This document shows, one piece after another, positions 3,254 to 54,988 of a stretch of 62,517 nucleotides of DNA; the stretch's first letter is position 1; every line of letters begins with the position of its first letter. This stretch comes from Holophagales bacterium. Lineage in GTDB: Bacteria > Acidobacteriota > Thermoanaerobaculia > Multivoradales > Multivoraceae. The position numbers were made by a program, and so were the translations under genes. The DNA lies in assembly GCA_009837085.1 (NCBI GenBank), contig VXUF01000074.1:1-62517 (forward strand), read 5' to 3'. Under the pieces are notes generated by a model. It worked only from the letters and a program-made list of their open reading frames with translations. It did not search any database and was not told the origin of the DNA.

Positions 3254-3286
3254 GAAGCCGGCGAGGACGCCGGCGCACCCAGTGTG
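3254..3286 (+). repeat. Dispersed GCCGGCG..ACCCAGTGTG repeat, copy 2
   Basis: GAAGCCGGCGAGGACGCCGG followed by CGCACCCAGTGTG, preceded by a short GCCGC-TTC-GCGGC hairpin. It lies between convergent genes. A partial second unit, GACGCCGGCGCTGCCAGTG, follows at once. Confidence 0.85.
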
Positions 3287-6556: not shown

Positions 6557-6584
6557 GCCGGCGGGGACGCCGGCGCACCCAGTG
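6557..6584 (+). repeat. Dispersed GCCGGCG..ACCCAGTG repeat, copy 3
   Basis: GCCGGCGGGGACGCCGGCGC followed by ACCCAGTG, preceded by a GCGCGC / GCGCGC hairpin-forming stretch (6527-6552). It sits in the 71-base gap between convergent genes. Confidence 0.85.
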
Positions 6585-10692: not shown

Positions 10693-11760
10693 ATGGAGTT
10701 CTGGACCGCAACCGTCGCCGCGCCGACCCGGAGCGCCGAGTTCGCCCGTCAGGCGGAGGCCAGGGGCTGGGACGGCATGAACGTCGTCGATTCGCAGAAC
10801 CTCTCCGGAGATCCCTATGTTTGCCTCGCGCTGGGCGCCACCGCGACGAAGACGCTGCGGGTGGCGACCTCGGTGACGAACCCGGTCACCCGCCACCCGG
10901 CGACGACGGCGGCGTCGGCGCTCTCGGTCCAGCGGGTCTCGCGGGGCCGCATGGTGTTGGGCATCGGCCGCGGCGACAGCGCGCTGGCGCACCTTGGCCG
11001 CGCGCCCGCCCGCCTCGGCTGGTTCGAGGACTATCTCGTCGTCCTGCAGACCTACCTGCGCGGCGAGGAGGTGGACTTCGAGAACACGGGGATTGCGGAC
11101 GAGGCTGCGCCGCTCGCGGAGAAGCTGGGGCTGGCGCACGGTCCATCGGCCAGCTCCATCCGCTGGATCGGCGACGGTCCGAAGGTCCCGGTAGAGGTGG
11201 CGGCCACAGGGCCCAAGGTGATCGGCATTGCCGCCCGTCAGGCCGACCGGGTCATGCTCGCCGTCGGCGCCGACCCGAAACGCGTCGCCTGGGGAATCGA
11301 GACGGCGCGCAGCGCCGCCGCGGAAGCCGGCCGCGACCCGGAGTCGCTCGAGTTCGGCGCCTACGTGAACGTCGTCTGCTGCGACGATCCGGAGGTCGGC
11401 CGTGAACTCGGCCGTGCCTCCACCGGCCTCTTCGCCCGCTTCTCCGTCATGTATGGAGAGATCTCCGGTCCGGCCGACGACCAGCAGGCCCATGTGTTCC
11501 ACAAGCTCCACGACAGCTACGACATGACCGCCCACGGCCGGGAGGGCGGACAGCAGACGACCGCGCTCACGGACGAGTTCATCGACGGCTACGCGATCGT
11601 CGGGAGCCCTGAGCACTGCGCGGCCAGGCTCGAGGCGCTGCTCGACCTCGGGATCGAGAAGTTCGCGGTCGCCGGGCCGAACTTCCTGGCGCCGAGCGCT
11701 CCTGGCCGGGAGGCCGCGGGGCGGTTCACCGAAGACGTCCTTCCGCGGCTGCGGGGTTAG
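10693..11760 (+). CDS. LLM-class F420-dependent oxidoreductase
   Basis: 355 residues from the ATG at 10693, after a GGAAGGAAG ribosome site. Family hallmarks are visible: EARGWDGMNVVDSQ, RVATSVTNPVTRHPA, RGRMVLGIGRGDSAL and AAVQADRVML-type barrel motifs. Members form a TIM barrel that binds coenzyme F420 or FMN and transfer hydride to alcohols, ketones or enoyl groups. The partner SDR and the acyl-CoA dehydrogenase operon 2-8 kb away suggest breakdown of a lipid-like or cyclic substrate. The cofactor (F420 or FMN) cannot be settled by eye. Confidence 0.85.
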   Translation: MEFWTATVAAPTRSAEFARQAEARGWDGMNVVDSQNLSGDPYVCLALGATATKTLRVATSVTNPVTRHPATTAASALSVQRVSRGRMVLGIGRGDSALAHLGRAPARLGWFEDYLVVLQTYLRGEEVDFENTGIADEAAPLAEKLGLAHGPSASSIRWIGDGPKVPVEVAATGPKVIGIAARQADRVMLAVGADPKRVAWGIETARSAAAEAGRDPESLEFGAYVNVVCCDDPEVGRELGRASTGLFARFSVMYGEISGPADDQQAHVFHKLHDSYDMTAHGREGGQQTTALTDEFIDGYAIVGSPEHCAARLEALLDLGIEKFAVAGPNFLAPSAPGREAAGRFTEDVLPRLRG

Positions 11761-11772
11761 GAGAAACGGAAC

Positions 11773-12651
11773 ATGGAGCTAGCGGGCAGGTCGGCAGTCA
11801 TCACCGGCGGCGGCAACGGCATCGGCCGCGCCATCGCCCTGGCCCTGGCGCGCGAGGGCGCGAACGTCGCGGTCGCCGACCTGGAGCAGGACGCCGCGGA
11901 GAACGTCGCGCGTGAGGTGGAAGCCCTCGGTGCCAAGGCGCTGGCGGCGCGCGTCGACGTGACGCGCGAGGAGGACCTGGAGCGCCTGGCCAACGACGCC
12001 TGGGCGGCCTTCGGGTCCGTCGAGCTGCTGTTCAACAACGCCGGCGTCGGCGCCGGCCGGGCGCCCGCCTACGGGTTCAGCGCCGACGACGTGCGCTGGA
12101 TCCTCAGCGTGAACGTCGAAGGGGTGCTCAACGGCATCCGCGTCTTCGCGCCCCGCTTCATCGAGGGCGGCAGGGAATCCCGCATCGTGAACACCGGCTC
12201 CGAGCACAGCCTCGGCATCCCCTTCCCCGGCTCGTCCGTCTACACCGCGTCGAAGCACGCGGTGCTCGCTATCTCCGACGTGCTGCGCGCGGAACTGCCG
12301 GAGCACGTCGGCGTCAGCGTCTTCTGCCCCGGTTGGGTCGCGACGAGCATCTGGCGTTCCTCCGAGCGCCGGCCCGAGCACCTCGGCGGGCCCCGGGAGG
12401 CCAATCCGGCCGGGGGCAAACTCAGCGCGGAACACGCCATGTCCGCGGCCGAGGCCGCCGACATGGTGCTACAGCAGATCCGCGAAGGCCGCTTCTACCT
12501 GCTGACCCATCCCCACGTCATCGAGTACGCGCAAACCCGGTGGAACGACGTCGAGGTCGCGTTCGCCGAGCAGGCGCCTCGATACGAGGGGGACGACAGG
12601 TACGACGTCGCGAAGGCGATCGCGCGGCTCCGGGCGGCGCGGGCCGGCTAG
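11773..12651 (+). CDS. Short-chain dehydrogenase/reductase (classical SDR)
   Basis: 292 residues, with a GGAGA ribosome site overlapping the preceding stop. The NAD(P)-binding motif ITGGGNGIGRA is near residues 11-21, FNNAGVG follows beta-4, and the catalytic YTASK has Tyr at about residue 157. Asp at the end of beta-2 (VADLEQ) favours NAD. It oxidises or reduces a hydroxyl/keto substrate. As the last gene of the plus-strand operon it could supply a beta-oxidation-like or LvaD-like step together with the divergent island genes. Confidence 0.9.
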   Translation: MELAGRSAVITGGGNGIGRAIALALAREGANVAVADLEQDAAENVAREVEALGAKALAARVDVTREEDLERLANDAWAAFGSVELLFNNAGVGAGRAPAYGFSADDVRWILSVNVEGVLNGIRVFAPRFIEGGRESRIVNTGSEHSLGIPFPGSSVYTASKHAVLAISDVLRAELPEHVGVSVFCPGWVATSIWRSSERRPEHLGGPREANPAGGKLSAEHAMSAAEAADMVLQQIREGRFYLLTHPHVIEYAQTRWNDVEVAFAEQAPRYEGDDRYDVAKAIARLRAARAG

Positions 12652-12700: not shown

Positions 12701-13909
12701 TCACTGGCGGCCGGCTCTACGGGCCCCGCCCCGAAGACGGTCGAAGTAGGCCGTGTCGGCCACGGCTCCCTTCGGCGAGGTGGCGCCGGTGATGAGCCGG
12801 TCGCGCAGGCGCTGGCGATCGAGATCGACCGTTGACGCAGCAGGATTCGCTGCCAGCTGGGCGAAGGGGCCGGGGTCACGGCTCTCGCGGTAGCAGTCGA
12901 CGATCGGTTCGAGGTCGCTCGGGCTGGCGCCGTGGAGGATGACGCCGTCGGCGCCGACGTCGAACTGGCCGCGGATCTTCTCGACGCAGCGGGCGGGCGA
13001 GCCGGTAGCGGCGGGGGCGAGCCAGTCTTCGGGAATCAGCGGGGCGATCCGTTCCAGCTCCTCGGTAGTAGCCAGGCTGTCGATCGCACCGCGGAAGCCG
13101 GCGACCAGAGGGTCGGCGCGAAAGCGCTCCAGCACTTTCGGGTCCCAGCGGTTCGTCTCGACCATCAGGTCGCCGTAGGCCTGCAGGTAGGTCGCCATCC
13201 GGCCGACCGTCTTCTTCAGGCGTACCGGCTCGGGTAGGTGATCGCCGATCGTGGCGAAGCAGGACCACACCCGGACCGAGGCCGGGTCGCGGCCGGCCTG
13301 TTCCGCCGCCCGCTTCACGGTGCGCACGCAGCGGGCCAGCGTTTCGTCGGTGAAGAAGGTGTGGAGCACCACCGCGTCGAAGGCCCGGCCGCCGAGCGCC
13401 AGCGAGTTCGGGCCGAAGGCGGTCAGGGTCATCGGGATCTCGTCGTGCGCCTCGGCACCGAGGCGCAGCACGGGGAAGCGGCCCGCCGGCCCGTCGTGGC
13501 CGACGATCGTCTCGCCCCGCCACATCCGGCGCATCAGGCCGACGAAGTCCTCCATCTGCGCGGTGGTGATCCGGGGCAGGCCGAGCGCATCGAACACGCG
13601 GGCGATGCCGCGGCCCAGGCCCAGCGAGAAGCGGCCGCCGGTCAAGCGGTGCATCGTCAGCGCGTAGGAAGCGGTGATCAACGGGTGCCGGGTGTTCTGG
13701 TTCGTCGCGGCGGTGGCGATGCCGAGTTCCGTCGAACAGGCCGCGGCGGCGCCGGAGAGGGTGGCCGCCTCCTTGACGTTGAAGCGCTCCGAGATGAAGA
13801 CGGAGCCGAAGCCCATCACCTCGCCGGCGCGCACCTCCTCGAACAGCTCGGCCGGAGACTCGGGCTGGCCGGCCAGGGTGTAGAAGGCGAGTTCGTTCAT
13901 CCGTTGCAT
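12701..13909 (-). CDS. LLM-class F420-dependent oxidoreductase (TIGR03857-like)
   Basis: 402 residues; the ATGs at 13909 and 13900 are both possible. MGFGSVFISERFNVKEAA, AATNQNTRHPLITA and GGRFSLGLGRG are typical of the F420-type LLM group, and the opening NELAFYTLAGQPESP resembles the subfamily known as TIGR03857. The second LLM gene of the window is on the opposite strand, converging with the SDR operon. It probably reduces or oxidises a catabolic intermediate with F420 or FMN. Confidence 0.82.
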   Translation of the reverse strand: MQRMNELAFYTLAGQPESPAELFEEVRAGEVMGFGSVFISERFNVKEAATLSGAAAACSTELGIATAATNQNTRHPLITASYALTMHRLTGGRFSLGLGRGIARVFDALGLPRITTAQMEDFVGLMRRMWRGETIVGHDGPAGRFPVLRLGAEAHDEIPMTLTAFGPNSLALGGRAFDAVVLHTFFTDETLARCVRTVKRAAEQAGRDPASVRVWSCFATIGDHLPEPVRLKKTVGRMATYLQAYGDLMVETNRWDPKVLERFRADPLVAGFRGAIDSLATTEELERIAPLIPEDWLAPAATGSPARCVEKIRGQFDVGADGVILHGASPSDLEPIVDCYRESRDPGPFAQLAANPAASTVDLDRQRLRDRLITGATSPKGAVADTAYFDRLRGGARRAGRQ

Positions 13910-13940: not shown

Positions 13941-13973
13941 GAAGCCGGCGGGGACGCCGGCGCACCCAGTGTG
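13941..13973 (+). repeat. Dispersed GCCGGCG..ACCCAGTGTG repeat, copy 4
   Basis: GAAGCCGGCGGGGACGCCGG followed by CGCACCCAGTGTG, preceded by GGCCGCC-TGC-GGCGG. It lies between the kinase gene and the second LLM gene, both on the minus strand. Confidence 0.85.
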
Positions 13974-13990: not shown

Positions 13991-15067
13991 CTAGAGCAGT
14001 GCGGCCGAGTCCAGGTCGAGGGCGTGGCGGGTGTGCCGCCTGGTCATCGCGACGAACATCTCGTTGCCGCGTTCGGTTTCGCGGACCATCATCGAGGCGA
14101 TCACGCAGACGCCGAACCCGGCGAAGGCGCCGAGCCGGTAGTCGTTCCAGCAGGCGTCCCGGGAGTAGCCCTCGATGCCGGCGGCGACCAGCCGCTGGTA
14201 GTACGCGCTGACGATCTCCGCCTCGCATCGCCGGCGGAGGGCCGGGTCCAGGCTGCCGCCCAGAAAGTAGGCGACATCGCCCAGTGGACGTCCGATCGTG
14301 ATGCTCTGCCAGTCGACCGCCGTGATCGCGGGCGGCGAAGTGCGCGGATCGATCAGCAGGTTGTCGAGCCGGTAGTCGATGTGGACGAGGGAGAACGGGT
14401 CGGGCGCGTCGCCGGTCCAGGCTGACTCGGCCTCGCCGTAGACGCTGAGGACCTCCCGCGAGTCGTTCTCGAGCCGGTCGCCGTAGCGGTCGAGGAAGCC
14501 GGGCAACAGGGTCTGGTAGCGGCGGTGGTGGGCCGCCGAGAGTTCGGGGCTCGGCCGGCCCAACCACCCCGCTTCGAGCAGGGAGGCATCGTTCCACACC
14601 GGGCCGTGCAGGCCGGCGAGTTCGAGCACCGCCGCCCGCGCCACGTCTTCCTTGCAGCCGGCGATCTGATCGCCCTGCTCCGCCGGCGCCTCGTCGCTCA
14701 TCAGGACGGCGAAGTGCGGGCCTTGGCCCTCGATCCCGGCGAAGTAGCAGCGCGGCGTCGAGATCGCGAGACGGGCCTGAATCTCCTGGTAGAAGCGCAC
14801 TTCCTTGAGGTAGTTCCGCAGCACGACGCCGGTCGCCCGGCTCGACGGATCGTCGGACGGGAACTTCCCGACCAGGGTGCGGGGCGCGTCCGCGGAGCCT
14901 TCGCCGTACTCCAGGCGGTAGCGAATGCAGCGTCCGAGCTGCCCGGTGCCGATGTCGGAGGCCTCGAAGCCGAGCACCTCGACCTCGTGGCCCGCGGCGC
15001 GGAGCTGCTCCGCGAGCCACTCCGCGCTCACCTCCCCGGCGGTGGGAATGAACGGCGCCGGAGTCAC
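13991..15067 (-). CDS. APH-fold phosphotransferase (EcKinase-like/ACAD10-11 kinase-domain-like)
   Basis: 358 residues from a GTG at 15067; the 865-residue tracked frame runs through the upstream gene. It has the kinase-like catalytic loop LVHIDYRLDNLL (Brenner HxDxxxxN form) near residue 236 and the metal-binding AVDWQSI about 20 residues later. N-lobe residues TLVGKFPSDDP hold the probable ATP-binding Lys. The family phosphorylates small hydroxyl compounds. Eukaryotic ACAD10/11 fuse such a kinase to an acyl-CoA dehydrogenase, and LvaA is a bacterial member acting on 4-hydroxyacyl-CoA. The 4-base GTGA overlap with the binding-protein gene places it last in the acyl-CoA dehydrogenase operon. 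Confidence 0.82.
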   Translation of the reverse strand: MTPAPFIPTAGEVSAEWLAEQLRAAGHEVEVLGFEASDIGTGQLGRCIRYRLEYGEGSADAPRTLVGKFPSDDPSSRATGVVLRNYLKEVRFYQEIQARLAISTPRCYFAGIEGQGPHFAVLMSDEAPAEQGDQIAGCKEDVARAAVLELAGLHGPVWNDASLLEAGWLGRPSPELSAAHHRRYQTLLPGFLDRYGDRLENDSREVLSVYGEAESAWTGDAPDPFSLVHIDYRLDNLLIDPRTSPPAITAVDWQSITIGRPLGDVAYFLGGSLDPALRRRCEAEIVSAYYQRLVAAGIEGYSRDACWNDYRLGAFAGFGVCVIASMMVRETERGNEMFVAMTRRHTRHALDLDSAALL

Positions 15068-16866
15068 TCGGCCGCCGGGCGCTCGCGCCACCAGCCCGGA
15101 CCGACCCGCGACGGCCAGCCCTCGGGCGGAGTCGGCCACAGGAGGATCGTGCCCATCGGACCGAGTTCGACACCGCGGATGTCGTCGTTGAACACCCAGA
15201 GGAAGCTGACGTGGAACAGGAACAGGACCGGCTGGTCGCGATAGACCTCGCGGTGGATCTCCCGGTAGATCGCCGCGCGTCTCTCGCCGTCCTGCTCCCG
15301 CTTGCCCAGGTCGAAGAGCTCGTCGACCCTGGGGTTCGAGTAGCCGCCGCTGTTGCGACCGCCGTCGTAGGCGTCGGTGGCTAGCTGGTTGCGGAGGGCG
15401 TTCGGATCCTGGGTCGTGCCGACGATCGTCCCGAGCGCCTGGAACTCGTGGGCGAGCCGCCTCTCGTTGAGCGAAGCGCTCTCGTAGGCGCGGGTCACCA
15501 TCTCGACACCGAGGCGGCGGAAGTCCTCCCGCAGGATGTCGAGCGTCGGCGGCACGTAGGTCAGGCCGGCGGTGTACGACAACTCGAAGCTGAAGCGGAC
15601 CCGCTCGCCGTCGATCTCCTTGTAGCGCCAACCGGTGTCGGGGTCGGCGAGCCAACCGGCCTGGTCGAGGAGTTCGGCGGCGCGCTCCAGGTCGTAGTCG
15701 AGCGCCTGTTCGAGGATCGCCGGTTCGTAGTCCCAGCGGCGTTCTTCCACCATGAAGCCGTAGGAACGCCGGTACAGGCCGTGGCCGACCCGGCGCAGCA
15801 CCGTCTCCGCGTCGTAGGCGTGGGCGAGCGCCCGGCGCACCAGGGGGTCGGTGAAGAAGGGATTGCTGCCGTCCATGTTCCAGAGGAGGCTGAGCAGCAA
15901 CGCCGACGCGTGGCGGCCCTTGACGCCTCTCTCCTCGAACAGTTCCCCCTTCGCCTGCCGGGCGAAGATGTTCGCGTCGACGTAGACTTGGTCGTACTCG
16001 CCTCCCAGGAACTGCAGGAAGGCGAGGTTCCGGTCCGGCTGGAACTTGAAGATCATCGTCTTCGCGGCCGGCGGCGCGCGGTCGAACAGGTAGTGGTCTT
16101 CCCACCGCTCGAGGACGACCCGATCGTTGTTCCGCCATTCCACGAAGCGGAACGGGCCGCTGCCGATCACCGCCTCGCGGCCGTAGCGGTTGTAGTAGGG
16201 CGAGGACCGGAGCGTCGGATCGGCGGCGCGCTCGGCGGCGTCGCCCACGATGTGGAGCGGCATGATGGGAAAGGCGAGCGCCTCCAGGCGAAGCTGCGGC
16301 GCCAGGAGCCCGGCGAAGTCGAAGCGCACCCGGTGCTCGCCTGGCGCCGTGGCCCCGACGACGAGGTCGCGCGTCGTCGGCCAGTAGCTCACCGGTACCC
16401 GTTCGTCGCGCAGGGCTTCGAGCGAGAACACGACGTCGTGCGCCGTCCACGGCTCGCCGTCGTGCCAGCGCAGCTCGGGATTCAACTCCAGGGTGACGGA
16501 GCGCAGATCCTCCGACGGTTGCACCGCGAGCACGACGTTCGAGTTCCAGTCGTAGTCCGACGGGTTGCCGTGGCGGACGACGAGCCACTCGAAGAGCATC
16601 CCGAACATCGTCCAGGCGGACGCCGCGCCGGACGGAAAGAGCGGATTGAGCGTCGCCGGCTGGGCGAAGTCGTGGCGGACGATCGTCGTCGCGGTGTCGG
16701 CCCGCTGCGGATCGGCGATCGGGTACAACTCATGCAACGACGGCGGATCGACCAGAGGATCGGCCAACGGGTCGTAGTCGCCGCCGGTATCGACCACGGG
16801 AAGCGGATTGCCGCAGGCGCCGGCCAGGAGGCCGCCCGCCACCGCCAGCCGCCACCGGGGGTTCAC
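15064..16866 (-). CDS. Peptide/nickel-type ABC substrate-binding lipoprotein
   Basis: 600 residues. A lipoprotein signal has its lipobox in LLAGAC (Cys18). SBP_bac_5 family features are present: PATLNPLFPSGAASA, LNPELRWHDGEPWTAHDVVFSL, GSGPFRFVEWRNNDRVV and a C-terminal lobe with DPNALRNQLATDAYDGG. The class captures peptides or other solutes for an ABC importer. No permease or ATPase gene follows, which is unusual. It lies between an acyl-CoA dehydrogenase and a kinase, overlapping each by 4 bases, so it is probably co-translated with them and may bind their substrate. Confidence 0.88.
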   Translation of the reverse strand: MNPRWRLAVAGGLLAGACGNPLPVVDTGGDYDPLADPLVDPPSLHELYPIADPQRADTATTIVRHDFAQPATLNPLFPSGAASAWTMFGMLFEWLVVRHGNPSDYDWNSNVVLAVQPSEDLRSVTLELNPELRWHDGEPWTAHDVVFSLEALRDERVPVSYWPTTRDLVVGATAPGEHRVRFDFAGLLAPQLRLEALAFPIMPLHIVGDAAERAADPTLRSSPYYNRYGREAVIGSGPFRFVEWRNNDRVVLERWEDHYLFDRAPPAAKTMIFKFQPDRNLAFLQFLGGEYDQVYVDANIFARQAKGELFEERGVKGRHASALLLSLLWNMDGSNPFFTDPLVRRALAHAYDAETVLRRVGHGLYRRSYGFMVEERRWDYEPAILEQALDYDLERAAELLDQAGWLADPDTGWRYKEIDGERVRFSFELSYTAGLTYVPPTLDILREDFRRLGVEMVTRAYESASLNERRLAHEFQALGTIVGTTQDPNALRNQLATDAYDGGRNSGGYSNPRVDELFDLGKREQDGERRAAIYREIHREVYRDQPVLFLFHVSFLWVFNDDIRGVELGPMGTILLWPTPPEGWPSRVGPGWWRERPAAE

Positions 16867-18107
16867 GCGTTGCGCTTGATGTCCCGGAACGGACCCTGGT
16901 CGGCGCGATATCCCTTCGGCATCCCCAGCACGCGTTCGGAGATGATGTTGCGCTGGATCTCGTCCGTGCCGCCGGCGATCGAGATCGCGGGCACCGAGAC
17001 CAGGACCTCCGCGATGATCCCGTCCGCGGCGGAGTCGGGACCGCTCAGCATGGCGTCCGCCCCCGAGATCATCGTGTGGACGTAGGAGGCCTGGCGGGCG
17101 ATGACGCTCGCGGCGAGCTTGCCGATCGACCCGGCCGGGATGATCTCCGTGGTGCCGGCCTTGCGCCTGGCCTCGGCGCTGTCGGAGGCGAGCCGCGCCC
17201 CTGTGTACAGACAGATCAGCTTCGCAATCTCCTGCCGCGTCGCCGGATCGTTGATCGCACCGGTCTCCCGGGCCCGCGGCAGGACGAGGTCAACCCGGCC
17301 CTCGCGCTGTGGATACCAGGTATAGGGCTCGGTGGCGATCCGGAGCTCCTCTTCGTACTCCGCGTAGATCGGCCCCTGCTTCGGGCCGTCGAGCGAAGAC
17401 CCCCGAACCCGGCGGCTGAAGCCGCGACGTTCGAAGGAGAGCGTGGTCTTCGCCACGTGCCAGCCGTTGCCCTCGCCGCCGATCAGGTCTTCGGGCGGCA
17501 CCTCGGCGTTCGTCATGAAGACCTCGTTGAACGACTGGTGCCCGTTCATCTGCCGGAGCGGACGCGCCTCGACTCCGGGCTGGCGCATGTCGAGCAGGAA
17601 GTAGCTGATCCCCTGGTGCTTCGGAACATCCCAGTCGGTGCGCGCGACGAGCAGCCCGAAGTCCGCGTGGTGGGCGCTCGTGTTCCAGACCTTCTGGCCG
17701 TTGACGATCCACTTGCCGTCCTTGAACTCGGCCCGGGTGCTGAGGCCCGCCAGGTCGGAGCCGCTGCCCGGCTCGCTGAAGAGCTGGCACCAGGTGTGCT
17801 CGCCGGTCAGGATGGGTCGCAGGAAGCGCCCCTTCTGGTCGTCCGATCCGCAGGCCAGGATCGTCTCGGAAGCCAGTCCTCGCGGGCCGACCTGAGCGGC
17901 CGGAACCACGTCCTTCTCCCGGAAGACCTCGGCGACGACCGCGGTCTCGTCGAGCGTGAAACCACGTCCGTACCACTCCTCGGGCCAGTGCGGCGCGGCC
18001 CAGCCGCCTTCGAGCAGAATGTTCCGCCATTCAACCAGGGGCCGGTCCACGCGCCAGTTGGCGTCCAGCCAGGCCGAGACCTCGCGCCGAATCTGGTCCG
18101 GTGTCAT
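16863..18107 (-). CDS. Acyl-CoA dehydrogenase, catalytic-type subunit
   Basis: 414 residues from the ATG at 18107. MTPDQIRREVSAWLDANWR is a normal family start; the longer frame reads through the neighbour. It has the FAD-binding signature CQLFSEPGSGSDLAGL and VWNTSAHHADFGLLVART, and the C-terminal SIAGGTDEIQRNIISERVLGMP holds a probable catalytic or flavin-contact region. It overlaps the genes on both sides by 4 bases. Pairing of two different-length acyl-CoA dehydrogenases in an operon resembles the alpha2beta2 enzymes of steroid side-chain breakdown in actinobacteria. Confidence 0.92.
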   Translation of the reverse strand: MTPDQIRREVSAWLDANWRVDRPLVEWRNILLEGGWAAPHWPEEWYGRGFTLDETAVVAEVFREKDVVPAAQVGPRGLASETILACGSDDQKGRFLRPILTGEHTWCQLFSEPGSGSDLAGLSTRAEFKDGKWIVNGQKVWNTSAHHADFGLLVARTDWDVPKHQGISYFLLDMRQPGVEARPLRQMNGHQSFNEVFMTNAEVPPEDLIGGEGNGWHVAKTTLSFERRGFSRRVRGSSLDGPKQGPIYAEYEEELRIATEPYTWYPQREGRVDLVLPRARETGAINDPATRQEIAKLICLYTGARLASDSAEARRKAGTTEIIPAGSIGKLAASVIARQASYVHTMISGADAMLSGPDSAADGIIAEVLVSVPAISIAGGTDEIQRNIISERVLGMPKGYRADQGPFRDIKRNA

Positions 18108-19204
18108 GCCGCGCCCTCCAGCATCGTCATCATCCGTTCCCGATGGATCGCCGGCGTGCCGAACAGGACCTCGGACGCCTTCGCCCGCTTGAACCAGAGG
18201 TGGGTGTCGTTCTCCCAGGTGAAGCCGATGCCACCGCGCAACTGGATGCCGGCTCTCGCCGCGCTCATGTAGGCGTCGGCCGCCGCCGCCTTCGCCATGC
18301 TGGCGACGTAGGGCTCGCCCTCCCCGGCGTCGAGGCACCGCGCCGAGTGGTGGGTGAGCGCCCGGGCGATCTCGATCTCGAGCAACAGGTCGGCGCAGCG
18401 GTGCTTGAGCGCCTGAAAGGAGCCGATCGGCCGGCCGAACTGGTAACGCTCCTTCGTGTAGTTCACCGTGGTCTCGAAGAGATGCTGCGCTCCGCCGATC
18501 ATCTCGTGGGCGAGGGCGGAGCAGATCCGGTCCCAGATCCGGCTAAGGGCCTCGCGGGTCACATCGCCGACGCGGCGGGCCGGAACGTCGGTGAACGCGA
18601 CCCGGGACAGCTTGCGCGTCGGATCGACGACCTGGAGCGGCTCGACCATAAGGCCTGACGCGCCGCCCTGGACCGCGTGAAGACCGAGCCCGCCGACACC
18701 CCTCGCCACGACCAGCAACAGGTCGGCGACATGCGCATCGACGGCCATCGCGGCCGTTCCGGACAGCTTCCCGTCCTCCACCACGCGGATCGAGCTACCG
18801 ACGCCGGCTGGACCGTTCAGGTCGTCCAGCACGAGAGTGGCGATCGTCGAGCCGTCGGCGACTCCCGGCAGCAGCGGCTGCCGGTCCGACTCGTTCGCCG
18901 CCTCGAGCAGCGCGGTCCCGGCCATCACCGCCGAAGCGAACCAGGGACCGCAGAACAGCGTGCGTCCCATCTCCTCGGCGACGATGCCGAGCTCGACCGC
19001 GCCGCCGCCGGCGCCATCGTAGGCCTCGGGAACGTGGACGCCGGCCAGCCCGGCGTCGCCGCAGAGTTCCTGCCAGACCGCCTCGTCGTAGCCCCGATCC
19101 GAGGCCATCTGCTCGCGGACGGCCGTCGCCGGCGACTTATCGCGCAAGGCGCGGGACACGACGTCGCGGAGAAGGTTCTGCTCCTTGGAGAACTCCGTCT
19201 GCAC
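18104..19204 (-). CDS. Acyl-CoA dehydrogenase, partner subunit
   Basis: 366 residues from a GTG at 19204, chosen because GGAGG lies 4 bases upstream; the 529-residue frame is not supported. It has an acyl-CoA dehydrogenase N-terminal helix domain (VHVPEAYDGAGGGAVELGIV) and a C-terminal domain with YTKERYQFGRPIGSFQALKH and QLRGGIGFTWENDTHLWFKR. The usual middle-domain FAD signature of catalytic subunits is weak here, and where catalytic subunits carry Glu this copy cannot be judged by eye. It heads the four-gene operon and probably forms a heteromer with the next gene product. Confidence 0.9.
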   Translation of the reverse strand: MQTEFSKEQNLLRDVVSRALRDKSPATAVREQMASDRGYDEAVWQELCGDAGLAGVHVPEAYDGAGGGAVELGIVAEEMGRTLFCGPWFASAVMAGTALLEAANESDRQPLLPGVADGSTIATLVLDDLNGPAGVGSSIRVVEDGKLSGTAAMAVDAHVADLLLVVARGVGGLGLHAVQGGASGLMVEPLQVVDPTRKLSRVAFTDVPARRVGDVTREALSRIWDRICSALAHEMIGGAQHLFETTVNYTKERYQFGRPIGSFQALKHRCADLLLEIEIARALTHHSARCLDAGEGEPYVASMAKAAAADAYMSAARAGIQLRGGIGFTWENDTHLWFKRAKASEVLFGTPAIHRERMMTMLEGAA

Positions 19205-19330
19205 GCTACCTCCTGTCGCCACGCATGAGCCTGGGTCCGCAGCGTACCCGAGGGGGGATAGAGTCGCGATGGCCCCGGAGCCAGCATCTACTGAGTGACC
19301 AGCCACCACTTTACTCGCGCCAGGCCAGGC

Positions 19331-19987
19331 ATGACAGAGTCCAGCCCCTTGAATTCGAGAACCGACGGCCAGGCCGCGAGGCGACCACGCCGTACCCAGG
19401 CCGAACGGCGGGCCGAGTCGGAACGCGAGATTCTGCGCGCGGCCGCGACGCTGTTCGGCCGCCAGGGCTATATCGCAACGACGCTGGAGCAGATCGGCAA
19501 GGAAGCCGGGTACTCGAGCGCGCTCGTGTCGCTCCGGTACGGCTCCAAGGAGGGGATCGTCGAGGCGATCGTCGATCGCTCGCAGACCAGGGCCAGCGAC
19601 GATGTCTTCGAACCGGAACAGGGCGTGACCGGCATGGCGGCTCTGAACCGCATCTTCACCGGCTACTCGGAACTGCTCCGCGACGCCGAACACTGGATGC
19701 GCGCGCTGTTCATGCTGATGGCTGATTCACTCGGGCCGCTGAACGCGAAGATCGACCTGTTCCGCGCCGGCAACGACCGCTTCGCCGCCGCCATCGAACG
19801 CGCCGTTCGCGAAGGGCAGAAAGCCCGCGAGATCCGGACCGATGTCGATCCGACCGGGACGGCGTTCGAGATTCTCGCTTCGGTCAGAGGTACAACCCTC
19901 CTCTGGCTGCTCGACCCGGAGAAGATCGATCTCGTCGCGGCCATCGAGGATCTCCGCGCGAGCGTCGAGGACCGACTGTCGGCCTGA
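19331..19987 (+). CDS. TetR-family transcriptional regulator
   Basis: 218 residues from the ATG at 19331; a GTG at 19295 would add 12 residues. The N-terminal helix-turn-helix region reads REILRAAATLFGRQGYIATT, then LEQIGKEAGYSSALVSLRYGSKE, a typical TetR signature. The rest is an all-helical ligand domain. It is divergent from the acyl-CoA dehydrogenase operon with 126 bases between starts, so it probably represses that operon and is released by an acyl-CoA or the pathway substrate. A convergent hairpin GCCGCC-ACA-GGCGGC (19997-20011) follows. Confidence 0.9.
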   Translation: MTESSPLNSRTDGQAARRPRRTQAERRAESEREILRAAATLFGRQGYIATTLEQIGKEAGYSSALVSLRYGSKEGIVEAIVDRSQTRASDDVFEPEQGVTGMAALNRIFTGYSELLRDAEHWMRALFMLMADSLGPLNAKIDLFRAGNDRFAAAIERAVREGQKAREIRTDVDPTGTAFEILASVRGTTLLWLLDPEKIDLVAAIEDLRASVEDRLSA

Positions 19988-29395: not shown

Positions 29396-29425
29396 GCCGG
29401 CGAGGACGCCGGCGCACCCAGTGTG
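29396..29425 (+). repeat. Dispersed GCCGGCG..ACCCAGTGTG repeat, copy 5
   Basis: GCCGGCGAGGACGCCGGCGC followed by ACCCAGTGTG. It lies directly upstream of the YidD-like gene (minus strand) and downstream of the DUF4870 gene. Confidence 0.85.
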
Positions 29426-34351: not shown

Positions 34352-34423
34352 CTCCTTCACCCCGCAACCCTGATGGCCATGGTCATGACCATGGCCCGGA
34401 GACGTGATACCGTCGCCGGCACC

Positions 34424-34696
34424 ATGGAACGGACGATCAAGGCCTCCGAGTTCAAGGCCACGTGTCTGAAGCTGATGGACGAAGTCGCCCAAAGCGGAAC
34501 GGAAGTGGTCATCACCAAGAACGGCAAGCCGGTGTCGCGGCTCGTGCCGTACCGGGAGAAGCCGAAGAGCCTCTTCGGTTGTCTCCGGGGTCAGATCGAG
34601 ATCACCGGCGACATCATGTCTCCACTTGAAGACGAGTGGGGCGGGTGGGACGGGGAGCGGGAACTCGCGCTGATTCGGGGCGAGGATCCCGACTGA
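34424..34696 (+). CDS. Antitoxin, Phd/YefM family
   Basis: 90 residues from the ATG at 34424. MERTIKASEFKATCLKLMDEV and VVITKNGKPVSRLVPY are the Phd/YefM DNA-binding fold signature. The C-terminus is acidic (EDEWGGWDGERELALIRGED), as expected for a toxin-binding tail. The VapC toxin gene starts 13 bases downstream. A GATACC hexamer 12 bases upstream of the ATG may be the promoter -10 box. Confidence 0.9.
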   Translation: MERTIKASEFKATCLKLMDEVAQSGTEVVITKNGKPVSRLVPYREKPKSLFGCLRGQIEITGDIMSPLEDEWGGWDGERELALIRGEDPD

Positions 34697-34709
34697 GCGG
34701 GAGACTCCG

Positions 34710-35108
34710 TTGCTGCTCCTCGACACCCACGTTCTTCTCTGGATGGTGTTCGGCAACGAGCGTTTCGGAGCCGGGGCGCGCCGCGCTGCTGACGAGGCAG
34801 TGGCGGCGGGCAACGCCGCTGCGTCCGCTATCTCGTTCTGGGAGATCGCGATGCTCGTCGCGAAGCGCCGCCTCCAGATACCCTGGGCGGCAGAGGCGCT
34901 GCGACGCTACCTGCTGGATCACAGCCTCAACGAGATCCCCGTGGACGGCGAGATAGCGCTACGGGCGGGTTTCCTCACCGACCTGCACGGCGACCCGGCC
35001 GACCGGATCATCGTCGCGACGGCCCTGGGCGGCCACCGGCTGGTGACGGCCGACCGGCGGTTGCTCGACTGGCCCGGGAACATCCAGCGGCTTCGCGCAA
35101 CCCGGTAA
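34710..35108 (+). CDS. vapC: Toxin ribonuclease, VapC/PIN family
   Basis: 132 residues from a TTG with GAGCGGGAGA upstream. The PIN acidic residues are visible: Asp5 in LLLDTHVLLWM, Glu in SFWEIAMLVAKRRL, Asp residues in HGDPADRIIVATAL and LVTADRRLLDW. Such toxins cleave tRNA or rRNA when freed from the antitoxin. It pairs with the preceding Phd-type antitoxin. The pair stands alone between housekeeping genes. Confidence 0.92.
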   Translation: MLLLDTHVLLWMVFGNERFGAGARRAADEAVAAGNAAASAISFWEIAMLVAKRRLQIPWAAEALRRYLLDHSLNEIPVDGEIALRAGFLTDLHGDPADRIIVATALGGHRLVTADRRLLDWPGNIQRLRATR

Positions 35109-54958: not shown

Positions 54959-54988
54959 GCCGGCGAGGACGCCGGCGCACCCAGTGTG
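54959..54988 (+). repeat. Dispersed GCCGGCG..ACCCAGTGTG repeat, copy 6
   Basis: GCCGGCGAGGACGCCGGCGC followed by ACCCAGTGTG, in the gap between parS and jag. Apart from it I see only short GC-rich stems in 54888-55116; no mnmE or mnmG gene is present where many genomes have one. Confidence 0.85.

Follow-up and report, generated by a model that had tools for sequence, protein, structure and literature searches.

Several heteromeric acyl-CoA dehydrogenases (ACADs) have been described, namely Tcur3481-Tcur3483, FadE26-FadE27/ChsE4-ChsE5, PimC-PimD and IpdE1-IpdE2. Tcur3483 and Tcur3481 together form a single steroid dehydrogenase, and both of them, as well as IpdE2, act on steroid acyl-CoAs. Two other precedents combine a kinase with an elimination step: LvaA/LvaC and ACAD10/11, which act on 4-hydroxyacyl-CoAs (PMC11342911, PMC12440821), and the 25-hydroxysteroid kinase (25-HSK), whose lyase is not yet identified (PMC8449060). 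Here we analyse an operon from a Holophagales bacterium (Acidobacteriota; assembly GCA_009837085.1), located in a stretch of 62,517 nucleotides of contig VXUF01000074.1 (positions 1 to 62,517, hereafter the window) and encoding two ACADs, a solute-binding protein (SBP), a kinase of the APH fold and an oxidoreductase of the luciferase-like monooxygenase (LLM) type, designated LLM2. Both kinase precedents are at most candidate models for this operon. Its dehydrogenases most likely make up one heteromeric enzyme, and the strongest partner of its kinase is LLM2, not the dehydrogenase. The genes in question are as follows.

18104-19204, minus strand: ACAD beta subunit, GTG start after AGGAGGT; R-x-x-F-G and GGIG kept, FAD-binding middle-domain motif lost
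16863-18107, minus strand: ACAD alpha subunit; SEPGSGSD, KVWNTS, GGTDEIQ and LSFER kept, R-x-x-F-G missing
15064-16866, minus strand: SBP_bac_5 solute-binding lipoprotein, N-terminus ...LLAGAC
13991-15067, minus strand: APH-fold kinase, ecdysteroid-kinase-like (EcKL); K68, H229-x-D231-x4-N236, D252-W-Q
12701-13909, minus strand: LLM2, F420-type oxidoreductase of the TIGR03857 family
19295-19987 from the upstream GTG, or 19331-19987 from the likely ATG, plus strand: TetR-family regulator, divergent
11773-12651, plus strand: short-chain dehydrogenase (SDR), convergent
10693-11760, plus strand: LLM1 oxidoreductase, not of TIGR03857, adjoining the SDR gene

The first-pass annotation, made from the sequence alone, had reported four minus-strand genes joined by 4-base overlaps and a divergent TetR gene, and both the coordinates and the Pfam searches, which confirmed the families of all five genes, bear this out. 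The 5' to 3' order on the minus strand is ACAD beta, ACAD alpha, lipoprotein, kinase, with overlaps of exactly 4 bases (ATGA at 18104-18107, GTGA at 16863-16866 and at 15064-15067). Of the 33 pairs of same-strand neighbours in the window, 9 can overlap in this way, so that three such overlaps in a row are unremarkable and point to co-transcription only. The operon is larger than first noted: LLM2, encoded on the same strand 81 bases after the kinase, behaves as the partner of the latter. Relatives retain the TetR gene next to the operon. Scans for promoters and terminators gave no result.

As to the dehydrogenase, the Pfam FAD-binding middle domain was recognised in alpha only, while the C-terminal domain was found at full strength mainly in beta, which carries RYQFG and LRGGIG and none of the four motifs of alpha. 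The LSFER motif of alpha aligns with LNHER of Tcur3483; we take the glutamate of these motifs to occupy the catalytic-base position of FadE26-type subunits, which makes it the candidate catalytic residue of alpha. Among proteins of solved structure (PDB), alpha is closest to Tcur3483 and beta to Tcur3481, and the top NCBIfam scores, all of them under the cut-off, were obtained with PimC for alpha and with IpdE2/PimD for beta. The complementary motifs, together with these matches, therefore suggest that alpha and beta are most likely complementary subunits of a single enzyme of the PimCD / Tcur3481-3483 / IpdE kind, predicted to act on bulky acyl-CoA. With the described heteromeric ACADs this pair shares the tandem arrangement of degenerate subunits and the complementarity of FAD-binding and catalytic motifs; it differs in its distant sequence, below every NCBIfam equivalog cut-off, and in the SBP and kinase genes that come next.

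The first-pass annotation had interpreted the locus as a split ACAD10/11-like operon. In a system of this kind (LvaA/LvaC), phosphorylation of a 4-hydroxyacyl-CoA by the kinase would be followed by loss of the phosphate, brought about by the dehydrogenase, to yield 2-enoyl-CoA. An APH-fold kinase is indeed encoded beside ACAD genes in one operon, as in the ACAD10/11 and LvaA/LvaC systems, and the profile of the kinase family prefers 3dxp (8e-11) and the kinase domain of ACAD11 (1e-7) over other solved structures; the proposed kinship with the latter domain holds in this respect, but the matches span only ~80 residues of the catalytic core. The dehydrogenase, however, is of another type, and its membership in the ACAD10/11 (LvaC) group is rejected, with Tcur3483/3481, PimC and IpdE2 far ahead: ACAD11 matches alpha with 50 bits against 107 bits for Tcur3483 and, for beta, does not reach the top 60 PDB matches. 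For comparison, the published LvaC is 56-62% identical to the ACAD10/11 domains (PMC11342911), and the dehydrogenase domain of ACAD11 employs a catalytic Asp, D753 (PMC12440821). Moreover, the window kinase falls into an EcKL-type clade in a tree built without LvaA or ACAD10 sequences, is separated from the dehydrogenase genes by the SBP gene and pairs with an LLM gene, and 8 of 20 genus-mates have the dehydrogenase with no kinase seen, several of these loci being complete without it. We thus regard the split ACAD10/11 interpretation as very unlikely.

The link between the kinase and LLM2 is best seen within the genus. All 20 genus-mates encode the dehydrogenase, 16 the SBP orthologue and 12 the kinase; LLM2 accompanies the kinase in 11 of these 12 genomes, the contig of the twelfth (G009) ending inside the kinase gene, and occurs in none of the eight genomes without the kinase. 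In three of the genomes from which both genes are absent (G002, G006, G014) the SBP gene directly abuts the 3' end of the SDR gene, and the flank ...GAGCGCC / GCTAGC(C)GGCCCG... brackets the very site that in the window holds the kinase and LLM2. Joint presence and absence and one shared site indicate, therefore, that the two genes behave as one cassette. On the dehydrogenase tree, built of 19 genus members including the window's genome, the distribution of the kinase needs about six changes, at least four of which are forced by well-supported branches, so that the idea of one origin for the cassette within the genus is not supported; rather, the cassette appears to have been repeatedly gained or lost beside the SBP gene. 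Draft assemblies may inflate the number of absences (in G011, for example, the contig ends inside the ACAD alpha gene). In the sister genus (G023) both the kinase and LLM2 are present, although unlinked.

A universal kinase-dehydrogenase link is likewise rejected, as the core dehydrogenase occurs without the kinase. In the order seen in the window this link is confined to the genus, and variable there, whereas the kinase-LLM2 link spans phyla; the gene order looked for in relatives is kept within the genus but not outside it.

The interval between the SBP and SDR genes was found to hold other inserts as well, a helix-turn-helix gene in G012 and a RelE-like gene after LLM2 in G010 (L089 4000-6800, L099 15240-15569), which suggests a site of frequent exchange. 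These inserts, the variable presence of the SBP, the kinase and LLM2 against the constancy of the dehydrogenase, and the commonness of short overlaps in the window would all fit a loose aggregate, i.e. a housekeeping heteromeric dehydrogenase operon with unrelated additions (SBP, a detoxifying kinase, LLM) that share nothing but a transcript. We consider this explanation distinctly unlikely, given that the overlapping starts are retained across genus members and that the same kinase-LLM pair recurs among CoA-type catabolic genes in distant bacteria.

On plasmids of Rhodococcus pyridinivorans (in two places) and of Pseudonocardia, a kinase gene is followed directly by a TIGR03857 gene, the plasmid kinases being 33-35% identical to that of the window and the plasmid TIGR03857 proteins 54-60% identical to LLM2. 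More distant TIGR03857 genes adjoin a second phosphotransferase clade in Streptomyces, Rhodococcus, Novosphingobium and Croceicoccus; the annotations of two further Rhodococcus records show the same adjacency, and on a Mycobacterium avium plasmid the TIGR03857 gene is three genes away from a phosphotransferase. All in all, a phosphotransferase lies within ~4 kb of every annotated TIGR03857 place inspected (plasmids only, some of the records being near-identical). Homologues of LLM1, intended as a control, gave too few matches on plasmids to be informative. The neighbours of the distant relatives include P450s, CaiB-type CoA transferases, MaoC, AMP-binding enzymes, ACAD, thiolase, and alcohol and aldehyde dehydrogenases. 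In the literature searched we found no description of the kinase-LLM pair, nor of a regular TIGR03857-phosphotransferase neighbourhood.

Some other neighbours of the kinase relatives deserve mention. In Gammaproteobacteria the gene preceding the kinase encodes an arylsulfatase or a P450 of the CYP153 type, and a TRAP transporter of the TAXI type is encoded nearby; at one locus the gene of a CYP153 alkane hydroxylase lies 2 bases upstream of the kinase gene. An alkylsulfatase and an AMACR/CaiB-type protein are also encoded at these loci (L029 1059-3379; L031-L037). On Mycobacterium and Rhodococcus plasmids, genes of phosphoenolpyruvate-utilizing enzymes or pyruvate phosphate dikinase-like proteins occur near the kinases (L102, L103, L106, L108), in places with P450 and SurE or tyrosine-phosphatase genes alongside. 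A lipocalin-like DUF7064/DUF7065 protein, possibly a further partner of the EcKL-type kinases, often adjoins the kinase in G021, G023, Blastococcus and the plasmids (confirmed by Pfam in the plasmid cases only, the others having been judged by eye):

L051 3959-5227: lipocalin-like neighbour of a kinase relative
L052 7734-8915: the same
L038 8988-9989: the same
L101 6202-7179: the same
L102 11225-12187: the same

The catalytic motifs of the window kinase are, judging by its alignment with 26 relatives, intact, with the predicted ATP-site Lys, the HxDxxxxN loop and the metal-binding Asp in place: the family keeps K68, H229, D231, N236, D252-W-Q and D264, of which K68, H229 and D252 are invariant, while conservation of D231 and N236 is 90% or higher. 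With a pLDDT of 92, the AlphaFold model is a confident one and has a kinase fold, the fold matches being PsiK, 3dxp, choline kinases, APH(2'') and 25-HSK (9fsg, 9ft5), all with TM ~0.5. The Pfam scores of APH and EcKL are almost equal for the window kinase, and that of EcKL is higher for its actinobacterial relatives. In the kinase tree, which was built without LvaA or ACAD10 sequences, the window kinase falls into an EcKL-type 'DWQ' clade separated (100/99) from the second phosphotransferase clade; by sequence, it groups with the ecdysteroid-kinase-like phosphotransferases, clearly apart from the other clade sampled. The first-pass annotation had held that an ecdysteroid-type kinase with no acyl-CoA link would speak against its proposal; the kinase is of that type, yet many of its relatives are encoded among CoA-type catabolic genes. 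It was found in only 9 of 297 genomes of the phylum, and this scarcity fits horizontal arrival.

LLM2 scores 403.2 bits against TIGR03857, well above the curated cut-off of 218.4, and thus resembles the LLM F420-dependent oxidoreductases of the MSMEG_2249 type; no reaction is assigned to this 'hypothetical equivalog' family. The aligned members share invariant E41, R42, K46, R74-H75-P76, R100 and R127-R128, and these residues would suit an anionic substrate. The His of the related Mer enzymes (TDHY) is replaced in LLM2 by Arg (SERF), the E-R pair being invariant in the aligned members. Of the F420 genes, CofE was searched for, and a homologue of this F420 ligase is present in the genome (E 2e-75), which makes the use of F420 by LLM2 plausible.

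The window lipoprotein is related to AppA and NikA and in this respect resembles the binding proteins of the Opp/Dpp peptide and NikA-type ABC importers; unlike those, it has no adjacent permease or ATPase gene. The first-pass annotation had called an SBP without its own permease unusual. It is true that no permease gene is nearby (BPD_transp_1 found no match on the window contig), but of the eight SBP_bac_5 genes of the genome five are near permease genes and three, that of the window and those on contigs C89 and C116, are not. The copies on C89 and C116 are near contig ends, and contig C95 carries a permease pair without an SBP match; in the near-closed genome G010 the loci that match these two copies, judged by eye, contain no permease. 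The two paralogues in the subfamily of the window SBP are ~43% identical. The permease-less paralogues and the G010 loci thus indicate that the missing permease is a habit of the subfamily and not a peculiarity of the operon. The structure model of the SBP is poor (pLDDT 45).

Taken together, these data allow us to propose, with about an even chance of being right, that the locus is an operon under TetR control which serves the catabolism of a bulky hydroxylated lipid acid and bears an added cassette for phosphorylation and redox chemistry. In this scheme the core heteromeric dehydrogenase would desaturate an acyl-CoA that is bulky, branched or ring-bearing, and the lipoprotein, added to this core, would probably scavenge or hand on the substrate. 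The kinase would phosphorylate a hydroxyl group of the lipophilic substrate, LLM2 would use F420 to convert the phosphorylated (or co-modified) product in either a redox step or a phosphate elimination, and the molecule would then enter the beta-oxidation route of the dehydrogenase. The best-supported model is that the cassette supplements the dehydrogenase in some strains. Several observations weigh against the proposed operon function. In the M. avium plasmid one kinase gene is immediately followed by an LLM gene outside TIGR03857, the TIGR03857 gene itself being three genes away from another kinase; no TIGR03857 gene was recognised near the kinase relatives of Gammaproteobacteria and Blastococcus, so that the pair is not obligatory; and no steroid core-degradation cluster was seen around the two KshA_C-type genes examined.

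Alternatively, the kinase could be a steroid or terpenoid alcohol kinase similar to 25-HSK, with LLM2 or the dehydrogenase removing the phosphate in the course of sterol side-chain breakdown. The kinase model matches 25-HSK, among others, by fold, the dehydrogenase relatives Tcur3481/3483 and IpdE2 belong to steroid metabolism, and the nearest named relatives of the organism (metagenome-assembled genomes of Holophagales/Thermoanaerobaculia and 'Candidatus Multivorans thiocomprendens') are of sponge type, presumably originating from sponges. The lyase gene acting after 25-HSK is unassigned, and a 'luciferase' band was co-enriched with 25-HSK activity (PMC8449060). The window kinase shares with the EcKL kinases and 25-HSK the fold, the EcKL match, the HxDxxxxN loop and the metal-binding Asp, but its likeness to 25-HSK is by fold only (16-18% identity), PsiK, choline kinase and APH matching equally well, and 25-HSK was not among its sequence matches (the presence of 9fsg in the sequence set being unchecked). 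The search for steroid genes yielded two KshA_C hits and about nine P450s in the genome, with no steroid cluster in the regions inspected on contigs C28, C87, C46 and C102, and no such cluster is thus demonstrated. On balance we find this alternative unlikely.

Two further features of the window need only brief mention. A dispersed, mostly intergenic hairpin repeat (consensus CACACTGGGTGCGCCGGCGTCC(C/T)CGCCGGC) has one copy in the interval that separates the kinase gene from LLM2. Allowing for no more than one mismatch, its 16-base core occurs 298 times in the genome, against 0 for the reversed control. The pair at 34373-35108, judged by eye, is likely a toxin-antitoxin system of the Phd/VapC type. 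The hairpin copies in the window are:

276-293: hairpin repeat
3267-3284: hairpin repeat
6567-6584: hairpin repeat
13954-13971: hairpin repeat, between the kinase and LLM2 genes
29406-29423: hairpin repeat
54969-54986 (-): hairpin repeat

The analysis corrects the tempting analogy with ACAD10/11 and points instead to a partnership of a kinase and an F420-type oxidoreductase, a pair that travels together in both Acidobacteriota and Actinomycetota, while Sphingomonadales show a parallel pairing. It is a speculative and rather doubtful extension that the EcKL/APH kinase and the TIGR03857 LLM form a widespread module, which converts the alcohol of a lipophilic compound to a phosphate ester, then removed or transformed with F420. 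If true, the module would be a deazaflavin counterpart of LvaA/LvaC and a type of system to consider for phospho-lyase steps that are still unassigned, e.g. that of the 25-phosphosteroid lyase. Should the two enzymes act in series, a function would thereby be assigned to TIGR03857, and the route by which hydroxylated lipids or sterols enter beta-oxidation in sponge symbionts and soil actinobacteria could be accounted for.

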